Positions 12,183-21,654 of a stretch of 21,654 nucleotides of DNA are shown here, piece after piece; the stretch's first letter is position 1, and each line of letters opens with the position of its first letter. Source of the DNA: a virus; the IMG/VR virus record IMGVR_UViG_3300017593_000032, positions 1 through 21,654 of that record. One strand, given 5' to 3'. The notes under the pieces were generated by a model, which saw only the letters and a program-made list of their open reading frames with translations, searched no databases and was not told where the DNA came from. The translations under genes were made by a program, and so were the position numbers.

Positions 12183-13469
12183 ATGGCAGGCGAAAATAAT
12201 CCTCAAATGTATAATTCAGGAACTGTTGCAGATCCTTCGAGTATTGATAAACAAGTAGATCAGGCACAATTAAATCCGTTTTACTATGACAGACAAGCAA
12301 TCGTTGAAGCTAATAAGAAAGCATATATTGGTCAACTATCTGGAACTCGTAACCAACCTAAAAATGCTGGTAAAGAAATTAAGAAACATATAATTATTCC
12401 TGTATTAGATGATAGAAATATCAATGATCAAGGTATTGATGCTGCTGGTGTAGTTATGGATTCAACTCTATGGACTTCAATTACAGCTGCTGGTGTAGTT
12501 GCTTATGATAATGCTGATGAAGCTGCTGCAATCACTGCTGCGGGTGTTGATGGTACTGTTAAACAAACTTCAGGTAACCTTTATGGTTCATCTAAAGATA
12601 TTGCAACTGTATCTGCTTTAACTCCTGTTATCTCTGAAACTGGTGGTCGTGTAAATAGAATTGGTTTCTCTCGTGAAATTATTACTTCTACTTTAGAAAA
12701 CTATGGTTTCTTCTATGAGTTCACTAAAGATGATCTTAACTTTGATTCTGATGCTAAACTTAAATCACACCTATATCGTGAAAGTGGTAAAGCTGCTGGT
12801 GAAATGACTGAGAAATCTTTAATGGTTGACCTTATTAATGGTGCTGGTATTGAAATCTTTTCAGGAAGTAAATCTTCTGTAGCTACTATTGCTGCTGGTG
12901 ATTACCCAACTCTAGCTGAATTACGTGCTATGACTAAAGTTCTTAATGCTAATCAGTGTCCTACTGATACTGCAATGATTACTGGTTCACGTAATATTGA
13001 TACTAAAGTTGTTGGTAATGCACGTTACGCGTATACTTCAGATGATATGATTATTATCCTTCAAGATACTATGAATGCTACAACTAGTAAACACGCTTGG
13101 GCTTACGTTGAAGAATATGCTGATGGTGCGAAATTTGCTAAATCAAATATTGCTAAAGGTGAAGTTGGTAAAATAGAGAAAGTTCGTTTTATTGAGCATC
13201 CAGAAATGCTAATCCAAGAAAATAAAGGTGCTGCAAACATTGATGTTCACCCAATCCTTTATATCGGTTCAGGTTCTTTCACACAAGTTGGTTTCCAATC
13301 AAATGGTGGAAAAGGTAAATTCGAGATTATCACGAAAATGCCAGGTAAAGAAATTGCTAATAGAGACAATCCTTATGGTAAAGTTGGATTCAGTTCTAAC
13401 AACTATTTCTACGGGATTCTGATTGAGAGACCAGATTGGTTAGGTGTACTATACGGATCCGTAGCGTAA
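12183..13469 (+). CDS. Major capsid protein (N4 gp56-like)
   Basis: A 428-residue HK97-fold capsid subunit that forms the icosahedral head. It is the clearest family assignment in the window. Signatures of N4-type capsid proteins appear in order: AYIGQLSGT near residue 47; IIIPVLDDRNINDQGIDAAG near 70-90; NLYGSSKDIATVSALTPVIS near 131-150; GGRVNRIGFSREIITSTLEN; then YEFTKDDLNFDSDAKLKSHL, CPTDTAMITGSRNIDTKVV, VDKF-equivalent NIDVHPILYIGSGSFTQVGF, KMPGKEIANRDNPYGKVGF and finally NNYFYGILIERPDWL. The length is close to that of N4 gp56 (about 400). The ribosome site is AAGG with an eight-base spacer. More C-ending and CGT/GGT codons occur than in neighbouring genes, which fits high expression. 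There is no sign of truncation. Confidence 0.96.
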   Translation: MAGENNPQMYNSGTVADPSSIDKQVDQAQLNPFYYDRQAIVEANKKAYIGQLSGTRNQPKNAGKEIKKHIIIPVLDDRNINDQGIDAAGVVMDSTLWTSITAAGVVAYDNADEAAAITAAGVDGTVKQTSGNLYGSSKDIATVSALTPVISETGGRVNRIGFSREIITSTLENYGFFYEFTKDDLNFDSDAKLKSHLYRESGKAAGEMTEKSLMVDLINGAGIEIFSGSKSSVATIAAGDYPTLAELRAMTKVLNANQCPTDTAMITGSRNIDTKVVGNARYAYTSDDMIIILQDTMNATTSKHAWAYVEEYADGAKFAKSNIAKGEVGKIEKVRFIEHPEMLIQENKGAANIDVHPILYIGSGSFTQVGFQSNGGKGKFEIITKMPGKEIANRDNPYGKVGFSSNNYFYGILIERPDWLGVLYGSVA

Positions 13470-13509
13470 TTAGCCTACCTATCTAATCAAGCTTTAAAGT
13501 AGAATACCA

Positions 13510-13515
13510 TATAAT
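13510..13515 (+). promoter_or_regulatory. Putative -10 box inside the 5' arm of the endonuclease leader hairpin
   Basis: TATAAT lies 33 bases before the endonuclease ATG. A start about seven bases downstream (near A13522) would fall inside the left arm of the hairpin at 13511-13549, so the resulting RNA could not form that stem. There is no TG extension or good -35, so promoter strength is uncertain. Confidence 0.4.
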
Positions 13516-13549
13516 ACTCCTATGAAATTAAAAACATAGGAGCTATTAT
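13511..13549 (+). promoter_or_regulatory. Hairpin sequestering the RBS and start codon of the homing endonuclease
   Basis: CTCCTATG (13517-13524) and CATAGGAG (13535-13542) form a perfect 8-bp stem around a ten-base A/T loop. Beyond a single bulged C at 13543 the stem continues with six further pairs, 13511-13516 with 13544-13549, giving 14 pairs in all. The right arm contains the whole Shine-Dalgarno AGGAG and the A and T of the ATG. In long transcripts coming from the capsid gene the site would be closed. A T4 I-TevI-like mechanism is inferred. Confidence 0.75.
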
Positions 13550-14483
13550 GAGTTCATTAAAAGAAAAAATTGGTTGTATTTACATCCACACAAATATAAT
13601 CTCAGGTAAATCATACATAGGTTTAACAACTCAAGGTATTAAGAGACGCTGGAATGCCCATACTGCACACGCTGCAATGGGTACACAAACGTATTTTTAT
13701 AATGCTATATGTAAGTATGGTAAAGACACTTGGGTATCCGCTATTTTAGAAGACCATATAAAGCAGTCTGAGTTAAATAATAGGGAAGTCTATTGGATAG
13801 CTAAATATGGTACCTATGGTAAAGGGTATAACTCAACACCTGGTGGTGATAGCTCAGCTACTACACATTGTAGAAAGCCTTGGTCTGATGAGCGTAGAAA
13901 AGTACAAATGCGCGCTATTGCAGATAGAGGGTACGTCCCTATGCCTGATGAGCAAAAGCAAAAGCTTAGAGAAGCCAACTTAGGTAAAACTGCTTCTGAT
14001 GAGACTAAAACTAAAATGTCTTCAGCTCAAATAGGGACTAAAGGCTCGAGCTTCAAACCTTGGTGGTACATGACACCTACTGGTGAGTTTATTGAAGTTA
14101 ATGATGTTACACAGAAAGAATTTTGTATAGCTCAAGGTTTTAGCTATAAAGCTTTTAGTGGTTTAAATCATGGAAAAATGGTAGAACAAGGCCCTATGAA
14201 AGGTTGGAGTTTTGGTGTAGGCACGTTAGATAAGTTAGAATACGTTTCTAACGTTAACAAGTCTAAACGTAAAAGCCCAACCACTAAAGGTAAGCCTCGG
14301 GATACGAGTTTTAATAATAAAGCTGTAGGTCAGTATGATAAAGATACTAATATGCTTATTCGAACTTTTGCTTCTGGTAAAGAGGCTTCAGCGGTAACTG
14401 GCATAAACTATAACTCTATTATTCGGTGTGTAAATGGCGGTAGACGTTTAGCATCAGGTTTCGTATGGAAGTCTATGGTATAA
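13548..14483 (+). CDS. Free-standing GIY-YIG homing endonuclease with NUMOD modules
   Basis: A 311-residue DNA endonuclease, probably a selfish element that copies itself into related phages by cutting endonuclease-free alleles. The GIY-YIG domain occupies residues about 8-95: GCIYIHTN (Tyr12) and KSYIGLT (Tyr23), the basic IKRRW (Arg33/Arg34) and LNNREVYWI (Glu80, the metal-binding Glu). Residues about 135-165 contain NUMOD3-type repeats (KLREANLGKTASDETKTKMS). A DNA-binding segment WWYMTPTGEFIEVNDVTQKE follows. Residues about 257-309 form a NUMOD1/IENR1-like end (AVGQYDKDTNMLIRTFASGK, then SIIRCVNGGRRLASGFVWKS). All expected catalytic residues are present, so it should be active. It interrupts the capsid to gp55 gene order as an intergenic insertion; no intron is apparent because both flanking genes are whole. 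AGGAG lies five bases before the ATG but within a hairpin. Confidence 0.93.
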   Translation: MSSLKEKIGCIYIHTNIISGKSYIGLTTQGIKRRWNAHTAHAAMGTQTYFYNAICKYGKDTWVSAILEDHIKQSELNNREVYWIAKYGTYGKGYNSTPGGDSSATTHCRKPWSDERRKVQMRAIADRGYVPMPDEQKQKLREANLGKTASDETKTKMSSAQIGTKGSSFKPWWYMTPTGEFIEVNDVTQKEFCIAQGFSYKAFSGLNHGKMVEQGPMKGWSFGVGTLDKLEYVSNVNKSKRKSPTTKGKPRDTSFNNKAVGQYDKDTNMLIRTFASGKEASAVTGINYNSIIRCVNGGRRLASGFVWKSMV

Positions 14484-14484
14484 T
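14476..14484 (+). promoter_or_regulatory. Extended -10 promoter TGGTATAAT overlapping the endonuclease stop codon
   Basis: TGGTATAAT includes the TAA stop codon (14481-14483) of the endonuclease and is 36 bases before the ATG at 14521. The downstream bases GTTTAAGATAAAA resemble the leader at 2604-2617. It would restore expression of gp55-like and later genes downstream of the inserted endonuclease. Confidence 0.5.
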
Positions 14485-14520: not shown

Positions 14521-15201
14521 ATGAGTTTAGCACTTTTAACAGGCGTGAACCTTGATGATCCTGCTTCTATAACAGATGGAGAATACTATGTAGAGAGCTC
14601 TGAAGGTTTACCTAGGGGTCAATCTGTTGGTATTTTTAGCCAAATTTCTCGTGCAGATACAAATGTAACTGTTTATGCAGCATCCCTATTTGTAGATAAT
14701 AGAGATAGTGGTTCAGTAGAAAATGGTGCACTTAAATTTGGTTTTAATGGTAACCTTAAAATTCAAGGTGAAGATACTCTTACTGTTACTTTTGATGATG
14801 TAGTTGGTGATAGAACATTTACATGGGATGCATCAACTGAACGTTATGTGTTAACTGAAGTTGCTGGACGTGAAGTTCGTGATCAAATGAGACTTAAACT
14901 TACTAATAGCTATGGCTACACTATTACTGGTCACGGTAGTTTTACTATGACAGTAGGCACAGACATATCTAATATAGGTTTTAGTGCATCTGGTTATGGT
15001 GAAGCGCCTACTACAGGTATAGATGGTCAAGAATACCCTGTAATGTTAGTACAAGAGTTTAAAGGTCTTTTAGCTTATGGTGATAAAGAACTTAGTACTT
15101 ATGAACGTTTCATATTTCCTAAGGAAGCTGTAATTGGATTAAATGCGCGGTCTTTCACTTGGTTTAGACGACGTCCTTTTACATATCTTCGTGATAAGTA
15201 A
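14521..15201 (+). CDS. Conserved N4-like virion protein (gp55-like position)
   Basis: A 226-residue, mainly beta-strand protein with AAGGA six bases before the ATG. Segments include LLTGVNLDDPASITDGEYYV, the repeated strand pattern DTLTVTFDDVVGDRTFTWDA, LKLTNSYGYTITGHGSFTMT and the C-terminal ARSFTWFRRRPFTYLRDK, which is strongly basic and aromatic. It occupies the place of N4 gp55, directly after the capsid gene once the endonuclease is discounted. It is probably a head or connector component, but the exact role is not known to me. A head decoration protein is an alternative because of the beta-sandwich-like composition. Separation from the capsid gene by the endonuclease is compensated by its own upstream -10 box. 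Confidence 0.7.
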   Translation: MSLALLTGVNLDDPASITDGEYYVESSEGLPRGQSVGIFSQISRADTNVTVYAASLFVDNRDSGSVENGALKFGFNGNLKIQGEDTLTVTFDDVVGDRTFTWDASTERYVLTEVAGREVRDQMRLKLTNSYGYTITGHGSFTMTVGTDISNIGFSASGYGEAPTTGIDGQEYPVMLVQEFKGLLAYGDKELSTYERFIFPKEAVIGLNARSFTWFRRRPFTYLRDK

Positions 15202-15295
15202 AAGAAGGTTTTCAGTATTTAGGCGCTCGTAAGAGCTTACAATATGAGGGTGAAAGCCCTCACTCAACAGAGAATAAAAATTAAGGTAATAAAAA
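15202..15295 (+). other. Structured intergenic region with small tetraloop hairpins
   Basis: This 94-base gap holds two compact stem-loops on the + strand: GCTC-GTAA-GAGC (15225-15236), a 4-bp stem with a GNRA loop, and TGAGGG/CCCTCA (15245-15250 with 15257-15262), extended by a T-G pair closing a GAAA loop. A weaker CTC-AACA-GAG (15263-15272) follows. No T-run comes after them, so they are not a standard terminator. They could protect or define an RNA end. No tRNA cloverleaf or ORF is seen. Confidence 0.5.
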
Positions 15296-16588: not shown

Positions 16589-18931
16589 ATGGGATTAGGT
16601 GAAGGATTTAGAGTAACAGCAGCAGCACCACAAATTAGTGATTTTACTAGAGGTTTGAGAGATACCCTTACCGCTAATAGAAATTTTGGTTTACAACAAC
16701 AAGATCGTGCTGCACAAGCAGTAAAAGATTTTGCACCTTTAGCTGAGAAACAAACTATACGAGATACGTTAGGTAACATTAATGAGCGAGATGGTGTACA
16801 ACTAGGTTTAGCGACTCAACAAGCTGCTAACGCAAAGTATACAGCTATTAATAATGACTATGAGCAAGATATGGTTAAACTAAAAGAGCTAGGTTATCAA
16901 GCTAATAAACAACCTACCTATTATGATGACAATGGGGTACCTTTAGTTGATCCTAAAATGGAAGGTATACAAAGAGCAGGTGCTGACTTAACTAAGATGC
17001 ACGCTGAACGTGTTAACGCTTTAAATACAGATATCCAAACTAGACATGCTGCTGATCAAGATATGTTTAATACTTTAACAAATCCTAAAGATGCAGAAAA
17101 AAGGTTAGCTGATGCGCTAATGGCTAAAGGTATAGGTGCGGATACATCTAGACTACAAGCTAGAAATGAGATGAAACAATATGATACTCCTGATTTAACA
17201 GAGATAGGAAAAGCTAGATTAAAATCTATTACTGATAGAAGAGAATTTATAAAAGATACTCCAGCAGTAGATCAATCTGTAACTAATCAGAACTACGCTA
17301 AAGGTTATTCATCATCTAACAAATCTTCATCAAAAAGTGGTACGTATACCCCATCTCATGATTATTTTACTAAAGTAGGTATGGATCAAGATTGGTCTGG
17401 TACTACTCAAGAAGAAATGAATAGTTATTTTATTAACGGAAGTAACGGTAATTACTCAGATAAACAAATTATTAAAGCTTTAGATAGAGCTAAGGGTTCT
17501 AACTTTGTAGGCGCAGGTAAAATAGACGAAGACATTTTTATGAAGGAACTATCTGAAATGGTTCCTACAGGATCTACTAGAGGTAATGGTAATGGAACAC
17601 AAGGTTTAGCTGTAACTAAGAGAACTAAAGGTTTTAGTGACGAACAACGTAAAGCTTTAAGGCAATTAGACGCTGAAGAAAAATCTATACTTGGTGGTAG
17701 TAAACGTAAGACTGTTAAAGATGTATTAGGTGATTTCGGTAGTATAAATGATAAACGTTATACTGATACAGGCCCAGCTACAGTAACTAAACCTAAAACT
17801 AAGGGATCTAAAGATACAACTAAACCTACAGTATTTGGCAATAAGGCTACACCTATAGTTAATAAACAAATGGCTAACCCTAAGAAAGGTAGTTTAGCTG
17901 CTGCTATATCTAAGTCACCTGAAGCTGCTAATGCATTCTGGGACGAGTACGGTAAACTAAGTAAGACTAAACAATCTAAAATAGATGAAGTACTTAATTC
18001 TAATGAAAGTGCTGCTAAGGTTAATAAGTGGGGTACAGACACAGCAAAAACTGCTGAAACGGTTACTCCAGCTAAAGTAAAAAATAAAACAGAGTTTGAG
18101 AAACAAGTAGATAGTAGTAACTCTTTAAGTGACGCACAAAAAGATTTAATAAAATTAGATGGAGTTGCTGAAGATATAGTTAGTAAATTTGGTGATTTAA
18201 CTATGGATGGTATAGCAGGCATTCTAAACCTAGTTACTGGTGATAGTAAACCTGATTACTTTACTTCTAAAGATGAAAAGAATGGGCGTAATGGTAAAGA
18301 GAAAATGTTTACAAGAGAAGGTGTAAGAGCCAGACTTACTGAATTAACTGATAATGCAACTTCAAATTCACTTATAAATTTAAATGAACAGTCTATTCCA
18401 AAGCTAGATACTAAAAGTGTGCAGAGTATATTTGATAGAAATAATCAATTAGCTGCAGATAAATTTCAAGCTGCGCAAGCACAAAGAGTAGTGAATAAAA
18501 CAAAAAGGCAAAAAGTAGGTAATAAGCTACCTCCAAGACCTAGAATTGAAAAGCCTGTTAGTGCACTTAAACAAGGCCTTGTTGATCATGCAAACTTCAT
18601 GAGAACAGACGAAGGTCAAACACAGACTATTAATGATGCTATTAATATGGTAAGTGGTAGTGCTAGTAGTAAATTAATTAATTCTACTGGTAGTAAATTA
18701 GCTAAAGCAATAAGCACAGAGAGTAAGGGGGCTAAAATAGCTCATGCTATGAAAAAAGGCCAAGCTGCGAATGAAAAAACTATAGATGTACTTCAACGTT
18801 ATATTAAAAAAGATGGATCACTAGTAGGTAAGGATTATACTGATGTGATAAATCCTGCTAAAGAAGCCGCTAGAGAAGCTGGACTCACACTAATTCAGTA
18901 TATTAGAACTTTAGGCGCACGTAGTTTATGA
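16589..18931 (+). CDS. Large internal/ejected virion protein (N4 gp52-like)
   Basis: 780 residues; AAGGAG is seven bases before the ATG and overlaps the upstream stop. It takes the place of N4 gp52, a roughly 78-kDa virion protein injected with the polymerase. The N-terminus is helical and Gln/Ala-rich (LTANRNFGLQQQDRAAQAVK, GLATQQAANAKYTAINNDYE). Residues about 230-260 are Ser/Lys-rich linker (SSSNKSSSKSGTYTPS). Basic, Lys/Thr-rich linkers recur near 395-420 (TKPKTKGSKDTTKPTVFG). Residues about 640-680 are again basic (QRVVNKTKRQKVGNKLPPRP), and the C-terminus is helical. The alternation of helices and basic flexible linkers fits a protein that threads through the portal and contacts DNA. 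No lytic transglycosylase or peptidase motif is seen. The function is by context. Confidence 0.72.
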   Translation: MGLGEGFRVTAAAPQISDFTRGLRDTLTANRNFGLQQQDRAAQAVKDFAPLAEKQTIRDTLGNINERDGVQLGLATQQAANAKYTAINNDYEQDMVKLKELGYQANKQPTYYDDNGVPLVDPKMEGIQRAGADLTKMHAERVNALNTDIQTRHAADQDMFNTLTNPKDAEKRLADALMAKGIGADTSRLQARNEMKQYDTPDLTEIGKARLKSITDRREFIKDTPAVDQSVTNQNYAKGYSSSNKSSSKSGTYTPSHDYFTKVGMDQDWSGTTQEEMNSYFINGSNGNYSDKQIIKALDRAKGSNFVGAGKIDEDIFMKELSEMVPTGSTRGNGNGTQGLAVTKRTKGFSDEQRKALRQLDAEEKSILGGSKRKTVKDVLGDFGSINDKRYTDTGPATVTKPKTKGSKDTTKPTVFGNKATPIVNKQMANPKKGSLAAAISKSPEAANAFWDEYGKLSKTKQSKIDEVLNSNESAAKVNKWGTDTAKTAETVTPAKVKNKTEFEKQVDSSNSLSDAQKDLIKLDGVAEDIVSKFGDLTMDGIAGILNLVTGDSKPDYFTSKDEKNGRNGKEKMFTREGVRARLTELTDNATSNSLINLNEQSIPKLDTKSVQSIFDRNNQLAADKFQAAQAQRVVNKTKRQKVGNKLPPRPRIEKPVSALKQGLVDHANFMRTDEGQTQTINDAINMVSGSASSKLINSTGSKLAKAISTESKGAKIAHAMKKGQAANEKTIDVLQRYIKKDGSLVGKDYTDVINPAKEAAREAGLTLIQYIRTLGARSL

Positions 18932-18937
18932 TATAAT
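18929..18937 (+). promoter_or_regulatory. Extended -10 promoter TGATATAAT upstream of the giant virion protein gene
   Basis: TGATATAAT begins at the TGA stop codon of the gp52-like gene and ends 28 bases before the ATG at 18966. The bases GATATAATATC also form a short palindrome. No -35 is clear. It would give the last large gene of the operon its own start of transcription. Confidence 0.45.
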
Positions 18938-18965
18938 ATCTTATATAAAACTATAAGGTATTTTC

Positions 18966-21654
18966 ATGAGCATACAATCATCTTTCATAGAAACCCCCAC
19001 GGTAGACGACACATACATAGATATAGCGCCTAAACAAACTAAACTAGAGCAGAAACAAACTCAAGTTATAAGTAAAACAGCACAAAAGGCTGACAGTACA
19101 GGTTGGGCTAAAGCGAATTTACAAAGCTTCAATGATGCTGATGGACCACAATTCACTGGTGTAACTGGTGGTGCTGGTAGAGGAGCAGACCTTACAGGGC
19201 AAGCTTCTGAAGATAGGTTACTAGGTTATGACGCCTATGAAACTAAAGGCTCACCTAAAGATTTAACTAAACAAAAACTACGTTACGCTTCTCAATTCAA
19301 TGTACCTATTGCAGACGTTACTACTGATATGATCAATATTGAAGGTGAAAAAGAACGCCTACAAGGATTATATGAGTTAACTAAAGCTCCTGGTGATGCC
19401 GATTGGACGCCTGGACCTATAGATTTAAACAATAGACCTGAACTAGGTTCTGAGAAATATCCAATAAACTATGAAGTAGATCGCCAAGATAGTGGAAATG
19501 TTGGGCATTTTGGTAGACCATTAACTAATGTAAGAAATCCTGATAACAAGCAGAATTTACGTGGTGCATTAGGTTATGGGGATAGTGATCCATCTACAGC
19601 TAAAGGTAGATTAGCTAAATTACGTGAAGGTTTAAGTGGTGGCCAAAACTTTAATATTAATCCATTTGATACAGCTAAACGTGCTGCAGTAGAAATCCTA
19701 GGGTTTGTACCTGAGACTGCTGCTGTAGTTGCAGATTTTGGTATGTGGATGGCAGATGAGCTTCGTGGAGCTGAAGGTAAAGATAGAATACAGTTTGATG
19801 CTACAGACTTAGTTAAGGCTACTAAAGAAGCTACATTAAATGCATTAGATTATAATGATAAACCTAGACAAGCTGCATTACAAGATTTTCAAAATGAAGC
19901 TGCTGAAATATGGTTTGATGAGAGTAAAAGTACATCAGACAAAGCATTAGCGTTAGGTAAGCTATTAGTTAGTAATGCTAAATTAGCACCTGATCTAGTT
20001 GTAGATTCTTATATATTTGTAAGTCAAATGAGAAAAGGTATTATGCCTAAAGGCTTTGGCGGAGCTAAAGTAGAGCAGTTTGCTAATAAAATTGGTGGAA
20101 ATATTTCTGGTGTTAAAGGCGCAGTAGTTAGAGACGTTGCTAAAGGTGCTGGTATGCGTAAAGCAGCTATAGATACATCTGAAGCTGTTGAAGATTGGGA
20201 AACTAATAATGAAGGTGAACTTGCTACAGCTGCTACGGTATTACGTTTAGGTGCTGGTAAGTACGCTGAGAATAAACTAGATCAAGTAATCGACACCATG
20301 ACTTTAGGTATGAGTAAACCTGGTAAACAAATGTATAATGTGTTAGGTAAACTACTTAATAAAACTAAAGTAGCACCATCTGATATAGATGGATTTAAAG
20401 GTGCAATAGCTGGATTAGCTAACCTATCAGCTAAAGCAGCGGTTAATGTTGGTGGTAAAGTAGCATCTGGTACAGCTGTAGAGTTTGGTACAGAAGCTTT
20501 ACAAGAAGCAATGAATATCGCTAATACTAGATATGGAACTAGTTTATATGGAGATAAAGAATTCCTCGGTATGCTAGATCAAGATGTACGTGAAGAACTA
20601 GTTAAAGCTGGAGCTGCTGGAGCACTTGGTGGTTTAGGCCAATCTGCTATTGGTACAACTAAAGGTTTGTTAGAGACTAGATTTGATTCACAAAATGTTA
20701 ATGATAATGAGGCAATTGCTAGTGCTAGTAGATTAGCTGATTTAATTAATGATGAAGATAATCCTACTGAAGTAACTGAACTAGTTAGAGATATTACTGG
20801 ATTAGATAAAGATGGCAAAGAAAAAGGTAGCTCATTCATAGATGATTTTAATCGTATGAACTCATCTGAAGCTAAATTAGAAGCTATAGAAGAAGTTATG
20901 GAAGCTATAGAAGATAATAAAGAGTTAAAGCGATCTCTTAAGTCACAGATAGTTCCAGGTGAAGATATTTCATATTATGATGCACTTAATAAACATTATA
21001 CTGAAGCTCAAGATGCAGAGGAAATACGTATTGAAGCTGAAGATCAAGCAATGTATGACGAAGATGAAGATATAGATGAAGATATAGATAATACACCTAA
21101 AGAGAAAAAGAAGAAACGTAAAAAGTTTACAAGCACAGATAAAGGTAAAAAAGTTGTAGAAGAGGTAATTACTAAAGTAGATAAAGAAGTAGCATCAGAG
21201 TTACATAAGATGTCAGTAGATGAATTTGGTGAAGACTTATTTAATGCAGGTGAATCAAAGTCTGCGCATGAAAAAGCAGTAGAAGTTTTAGCAAAAGAAA
21301 CTGGTAGAACTGTTGAAGATATTCAAAATGAGCTAAATGAAATAGACGCACAAGATGCAGCTGATGCTAAAGAAGCTCAAGAACTTGAAGCTCAAGCCCA
21401 AGCTGCTCGTAAGAAATTAGATGATCCTAATTTAGACTCTAAAACTAGATCTGGTCTTGAAGCTGCATTAAAAGAATATGATGAGATTAATTTACACGCT
21501 GGTGATATAAATGAAGCTTTGCCTGAAGGTGTGCAAGCTGTAGTAGATACTAAACGAACTAATAAGTTCGGTAAAGTAGATGCTAAAAGCAGAACTAACA
21601 CTAAAGAGAAAGTGCTATCTACAGAAGCTATGCAAGCAACATCTGATGATAATA
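18966..21654 (+). CDS. N-terminal part of the giant virion protein, probably virion RNA polymerase (N4 gp50-like; partial)
   Basis: The frame opens at ATG 18966 (AAGG, seven-base spacer) and stays open for 896 codons to the edge of the window. In N4 the gene after gp52/gp51 is gp50, a roughly 3500-residue, T7-like single-subunit RNA polymerase packaged in the head and injected to transcribe early genes. Its catalytic part begins near residue 1000, so it would lie outside this window; no polymerase motif can be seen here. What is visible: a polar N-terminus (about 1-230) with VTGGAGRGADLTGQASEDRL; helical regions with hydrophobic stretches (EILGFVPETAAVVADFGMWM near 243, KLAPDLVVDSYIFVSQM near 340); then Ala/Gly-rich helices; from about 570 a very acidic, coiled-coil-like region with a lysine cluster (KEKKKKRKKF near 713). 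The call rests on synteny and openness. A giant polyvalent ejected protein with other enzyme domains is the alternative. Confidence 0.72.
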   Translation, partial: MSIQSSFIETPTVDDTYIDIAPKQTKLEQKQTQVISKTAQKADSTGWAKANLQSFNDADGPQFTGVTGGAGRGADLTGQASEDRLLGYDAYETKGSPKDLTKQKLRYASQFNVPIADVTTDMINIEGEKERLQGLYELTKAPGDADWTPGPIDLNNRPELGSEKYPINYEVDRQDSGNVGHFGRPLTNVRNPDNKQNLRGALGYGDSDPSTAKGRLAKLREGLSGGQNFNINPFDTAKRAAVEILGFVPETAAVVADFGMWMADELRGAEGKDRIQFDATDLVKATKEATLNALDYNDKPRQAALQDFQNEAAEIWFDESKSTSDKALALGKLLVSNAKLAPDLVVDSYIFVSQMRKGIMPKGFGGAKVEQFANKIGGNISGVKGAVVRDVAKGAGMRKAAIDTSEAVEDWETNNEGELATAATVLRLGAGKYAENKLDQVIDTMTLGMSKPGKQMYNVLGKLLNKTKVAPSDIDGFKGAIAGLANLSAKAAVNVGGKVASGTAVEFGTEALQEAMNIANTRYGTSLYGDKEFLGMLDQDVREELVKAGAAGALGGLGQSAIGTTKGLLETRFDSQNVNDNEAIASASRLADLINDEDNPTEVTELVRDITGLDKDGKEKGSSFIDDFNRMNSSEAKLEAIEEVMEAIEDNKELKRSLKSQIVPGEDISYYDALNKHYTEAQDAEEIRIEAEDQAMYDEDEDIDEDIDNTPKEKKKKRKKFTSTDKGKKVVEEVITKVDKEVASELHKMSVDEFGEDLFNAGESKSAHEKAVEVLAKETGRTVEDIQNELNEIDAQDAADAKEAQELEAQAQAARKKLDDPNLDSKTRSGLEAALKEYDEINLHAGDINEALPEGVQAVVDTKRTNKFGKVDAKSRTNTKEKVLSTEAMQATSDDN

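Follow-up and report, generated by a model that had tools for sequence, protein, structure and literature searches.

The closest described system is the control of I-TevI, the homing endonuclease of the T4 td intron. An RNA hairpin hides the Shine-Dalgarno (SD) sequence and start codon of its gene, and the gene's own promoter lies on the left arm of that hairpin, its transcript being unable to form the structure (PMC2988022). A free-standing endonuclease gene, mobE of Aeromonas phage Aeh1, likewise has a hairpin that was shown to sequester its ribosome site (PMC2988022, PMC3014915), and in T4 genes e (lysozyme) and soc the SD sequence is hidden by a hairpin whose left arm contains a late promoter (PMC3014915). 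In phage N4, late genes are read by the host σ70 polymerase together with N4SSB (PMC4496689).

We analysed a 21.7-kb piece of an uncultured virus (hereafter the window), which is N4-like by its capsid, portal and gene order. Its capsid protein is ~40% identical to Schitoviridae capsids, and membership of this group is further indicated by a virion RNA polymerase gene, which is cut by the contig end. The features around the capsid gene are as follows.

12183-13469, + strand: major capsid protein gene, N4-like (PHROG 1357 major head protein, E 1.3e-87)
13510-13515, + strand: TATAAT, candidate -10 box in the left arm of the hairpin (sequence; clade enrichment), with a predicted RNA start at ~13522
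13510-13524, + strand: left arm of the hairpin (fold)
13517-13521, + strand: CTCCT anti-SD, between the -10 box and the predicted start site (sequence)
13535-13550, + strand: right arm with the ribosome site and start codon, bulged C13543 (fold)
13538-13542, + strand: AGGAG SD sequence, inside the right arm (sequence)
13548-14483, + strand: GIY-YIG homing endonuclease gene with a NUMOD1 domain, 311 aa (Pfam GIY-YIG, PF01541, 6.9e-10; NUMOD1, 9e-5)
14479-14484, + strand: TGG-TATAAT, extended -10, candidate promoter of gene 14521, overlapping the endonuclease stop codon
14521-15201, + strand: gene downstream of the endonuclease; its homologue in relative L003, directly behind the capsid gene, gives the endonuclease-free comparison
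15245-15262, + strand: stem-loop comparable to the one 3' of the capsid gene in relatives L002-L005

The catalytic domain, with its core residues conserved in alignment, and the NUMOD1 domain predict that the product of 13548-14483 is a GIY-YIG homing endonuclease. The gene is missing from the four nearest relatives (L002-L005, capsids 77-81% identical), so gene and leader look like an insertion; L003 has a 40-nt gap between its capsid gene and the homologue of gene 14521. Such an empty site in close relatives is what a mobile gene, here of predicted activity, leaves. No GIY-YIG gene was found in 49 N4-like contigs, no close relative of the endonuclease turned up in a scan, and the leader used as a DNA query against phage records gave weak matches alone (E 2 or worse). 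Since the TGG-TATAAT overlaps the endonuclease stop codon, gene 14521 may be transcribed from a promoter provided by the inserted gene. In L003, which is without the insertion, there is no TATAAT at the corresponding place. The gene behind the capsid gene also differs in length, 103 aa in L003 (4301-4612) versus 226 aa in the window (14521-15201), the ends matching as if the middle had been gained or lost.

The original prediction described a stem of 14 base pairs with one bulged C, enclosing the AGGAG and most of the ATG of the endonuclease. RNA folding of 13490-13570 gave this very stem, with 15 pairs when the terminal U13510-G13550 is counted, a 10-nt loop and both AGGAG and ATG (13548-13550) in the right arm. 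Its minimum free energy was -15.4 kcal/mol (z -4.2), and none of 200 shuffles was as stable; with larger samples, 27 of 20,000 shuffles of the 81-nt segment folded as well as the native one, and 0 of 20,000 dinucleotide shuffles of the hairpin proper (13510-13550) matched it. The computed cost of opening AGGAG and ATG was ~13 kcal/mol (12-13.5) in read-through RNA and 3.9 kcal/mol for an RNA with its 5' end at 13522; it dropped steeply past a 5' end at 13516 and stayed at 3.9-4.0 kcal/mol from 13521 onward. When the upstream region (13470-13534) was shuffled and the right arm held fixed, 57 of 5000 sequences (~1%) reached the observed occlusion, which makes this one case, taken by itself, less than overwhelming. 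The capsid stop codon lies 40 nt 5' of the stem, and terminating capsid ribosomes should therefore not open the hairpin. An RNA begun at 13522 would open with an AUG and a five-codon frame, MKLKT (13522-13539), whose stop overlaps the AGGAG of the endonuclease.

In silico, then, the leader has the hairpin of the I-TevI type, which pairs both the SD sequence and the start codon, and in the same pipeline the two are of nearly the same strength: 13.0 kcal/mol for I-TevI and 13.3 kcal/mol here. Both enzymes have a catalytic GIY-YIG domain. I-TevI, however, is encoded in a group I intron and has a gp55-dependent late promoter within early/middle RNA, whereas the window has a TATAAT box, a free-standing gene and an upstream RNA that is probably late. 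The mobE gene of Aeh1 resembles the window gene in being a free-standing endonuclease gene with a hairpin over its ribosome site, but encodes an HNH and not a GIY-YIG enzyme, belongs to a T4-type phage and has ribonucleotide reductase genes, not a capsid gene, as neighbours. T4 e and soc differ in being ordinary phage genes with T4 late promoters.

A TATAAT on the left arm at 13510-13515 is indeed present, as had been claimed. It has neither a credible -35 element (TCAAGC at 17-nt spacing) nor a TGn extension, and a promoter scan did not call it. TATAAT also arose in 21% of shuffles of 13470-13534, and the box by itself is thus not surprising. Across the clade, TATAAT within 60 nt upstream of genes is 3-6 times over-represented: it precedes 5 of the 17 predicted genes in the window (1.0 expected from its density), 7 of 31 in relative G001 (2.7 expected) and 6 of 23 in sister phage G003 (1.1 expected), and several of the clade boxes are preceded by TGG. 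These boxes are the apparent promoters of the clade, and we infer that the one at 13510-13515 is a weak late promoter. The setting resembles that of the N4 late promoters, which serve late structural genes, as TATAAT boxes stand upstream of such genes in the window's clade; in contrast to N4, the promoters here are predicted from sequence, and they would presumably depend on an N4SSB homologue.

The box does not belong to the T4-late type (TATAAATA, gp55), as the sequence here is TATAATACTCC and not TATAAATACTCC. We do not claim that the leader derives from a T4-type cassette (TATAAATACTCC minus one A), because the proteins are only ~24-33% identical. The early hairpin promoters of N4, read by the virion polymerase, have a short stem and a 3-nt loop, and on these features we rejected an element of that kind.

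Opening costs were computed for 63 gene starts across three genomes: the window, G001 and G003. The four most occluded were those of the window endonuclease (13.5 kcal/mol), the virion RNA polymerase of G001 (12.9) and of the window (12.0), and an HNH endonuclease of G003 (11.6); the fifth reached 8.8. All four have TATAAT inside the hairpin, that is 4 of 20 starts with the box versus 0 of 43 without it (Fisher p 0.008, indicative only, because the threshold was chosen after seeing the values). Two of the four, the polymerase leaders, are homologous. Among seven TATAAT-preceded genes of the window, the difference between long and short RNA was 9.5 kcal/mol for the endonuclease, 7.1 for the virion RNA polymerase and at most 2.3 for the others. 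The second leader comprises:

18921-18975, + strand: virion RNA polymerase leader hairpin (z -4.05, 0 of 200 shuffles; gene start 18966, AAGG 18955-18958)
18932-18937, + strand: TATAAT inside this second ribosome-site-hiding hairpin

The polymerase hairpin is common to the window and G001, whose protein matches virion RNA polymerase phrog_2206 (E 2e-253), with one compensatory change from A-U to G-C among ten pairs. Among 18 further N4-like contigs no virion RNA polymerase leader showed a clear layout of this kind, and it is missing before the split polymerase gene of G003; in the leader of phage N4 itself, a TATAGT box can pair with the start region. The virion RNA polymerase region of G003 (19635-29347) lies in two open frames (990 and 2246 aa) versus a single 3141-aa frame in G001.

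The HNH endonuclease of G003 (174 aa; L221 14222-14746, - strand) lies between nrdA and nrdB, the position that mobE has in T4. Its leader has a near-consensus σ70 promoter, TTGACT-18-TATAAT, with the box in the loop of the start-site hairpin. Within the ribonucleotide reductase pair, and on the strand opposite the late genes, the timing logic of the original prediction could apply to this gene. In a further N4-like phage, G027, an HNH gene is preceded by TTGACA-17-TATAAT and then a ten-pair hairpin, and its opening cost falls from 12.7 to 2.5 kcal/mol. The starts of most other HNH genes in N4-like contigs were not occluded; the layout is thus recurrent, not universal.

Beyond these phages, the pattern TATAAATACTCCT...AGGAG...ATG, a T4 late promoter with a hairpin, occurred in 60 viral stretches, with 37 non-redundant proteins behind it, ~19 of them GIY-YIG or HNH endonucleases (translations inspected; Pfam counts) and two of them Soc. 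The pattern TATAATACTCCT with a tail AGGAG...ATG gave 33 stretches and 22 non-redundant proteins, which included two endonucleases (L192 and L189) and recurrently the uvsX/RecA family. The L192 gene, of the HNH/endonuclease VII type, lies directly 3' of a major head protein gene, and its opening cost falls from 16.8 to 2.7 kcal/mol; in structure this locus closely resembles that of the window, although the phage is unrelated. L224 (crAss-like phage cr115_1) is, besides L192, another unrelated phage with an endonuclease gene directly behind a major head protein gene. The TATAATACTCCT start-site hairpin precedes uvsX/RecA-type genes in L185, L200, L201, L205 and L214, with TTGAAA 17 nt upstream in those inspected, and GH19-type endolysin genes (L087, L089, L093, L096, L099, L105 and others) have a T4-late-like CTAAATA box with a CTCCTATG/CATAGGAG hairpin, as T4 gene e does.

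The CTCCT geometry of the window leader was met in the viral pattern scans and in a bacterial scan alike. A consensus σ70 promoter with CTCCT in the discriminator also precedes ordinary bacterial genes, among them rplM, rpmH, clpB and grpE (translations inspected), at a rate in bacterial genomes that we judged compatible with chance; the promoter/CTCCT geometry alone is therefore not specific. Unselected GIY-YIG relatives showed no general excess of occluded starts (p 0.15).

Several other explanations of the leader have to be weighed. The hairpin could simply hold down translation of the endonuclease on every RNA, with no internal promoter and with the TATAAT as a by-product of an AT-rich stem. 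The missing -35 and TGn elements, and the ease with which the box arises in shuffles of the upstream region, fit this reading. We consider it unlikely, however, given the over-representation of TATAAT upstream of clade genes, the presence of the box in the hairpins of all four most occluded starts and in none of comparable occlusion among the 43 starts that lack it, and the two sister HNH genes (G003 and G027), in which a near-consensus or consensus promoter occupies the corresponding position. That the leader is a functionless palindrome, arisen by chance in an AT-rich intergenic region, would agree with its occurrence in one genome only and with the accessibility p of ~0.01 when the right arm is fixed; it is very unlikely in view of the hairpin shuffles, the exactness with which SD and ATG are covered, and the reappearance of the layout before other N4-like phage endonucleases.

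The inverted repeat might also act as DNA, as an operator over the promoter for the endonuclease itself or another dimeric protein, in the manner of I-TevI autorepression. GIY-YIG homing enzymes with NUMOD domains, however, should recognise long sites without symmetry. Start-site occlusion accounts directly for where the arms lie, and an operator at this locus seems to us highly improbable, even though operators lie over the promoters of I-TevI and, putatively, of I-TevII and I-TevIII (PMC2988022). A stem-loop that stabilises or terminates the 3' end of the capsid message would lie where this hairpin does, just behind the capsid gene, and relatives have a stem-loop there. Yet the hairpin has no U-run and drew no call in the terminator scan, and the window retains the counterpart of the relatives' stem-loop at 15245-15262, before the next conserved gene; the endonuclease hairpin is thus not that element displaced, which leaves this role extremely improbable.

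We consider it likely that the endonuclease leader is a translation lock with its promoter inside the hairpin. Read-through RNA from the capsid gene would contain both arms, fold, and close the SD sequence and AUG. Host-type RNA polymerase would start at the TATAAT box to give an RNA with its 5' end near 13522, and this transcript, being without the CTCCT arm, would be open to ribosomes. Synthesis of the endonuclease would thus depend entirely on its own weak promoter and would not reach the level set by capsid mRNA. Computation shows that the arms pair, how strongly they do so, that the pairing is lost once the 5' end reaches 13521, and that the layout recurs. Promoter activity, the start site, the difference in translation and the benefit are inferred; the benefit may be that the dose of a DNA-cutting enzyme is controlled although its gene shares an abundant late message.

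By analogy, the logic of the leader is that of I-TevI, I-TevII, I-TevIII, segB, mobE, e and soc in T4-type phages (PMC2988022, PMC3014915). The proposal of I-TevI-like control is partly supported, by geometry, predicted energetics, the clade's TATAAT boxes and recurrence, and does not extend to a T4-late promoter or a role in timing. The limitation of the enzyme to late time is not carried over, because capsid read-through RNA is itself expected to be late in an N4-type programme (PMC4496689). Since the upstream RNA too is probably late, a limit on dose is a more likely role for the hairpin than one on time, and dose control or insulation fits better than restriction to late time.

The control scheme is a known one; its candidate promoter here is σ70-like and not T4-late, and its recurrence in N4-like phages is a useful addition. 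We tentatively suggest that N4-like phages may regularly embed host-type TATAAT promoters in ribosome-site-hiding hairpins as insulation, before their own virion RNA polymerase and, independently, before several unrelated homing endonucleases, so that each of these proteins would come from dedicated transcripts alone. In T4, control of the intron endonucleases had been tied to the phage's late sigma factor. If the layout works with a plain -10 box in another phage family, before selfish as well as essential genes, it would be a general and easily evolved logic, one that, if true, separates a gene's output from that of its operon.
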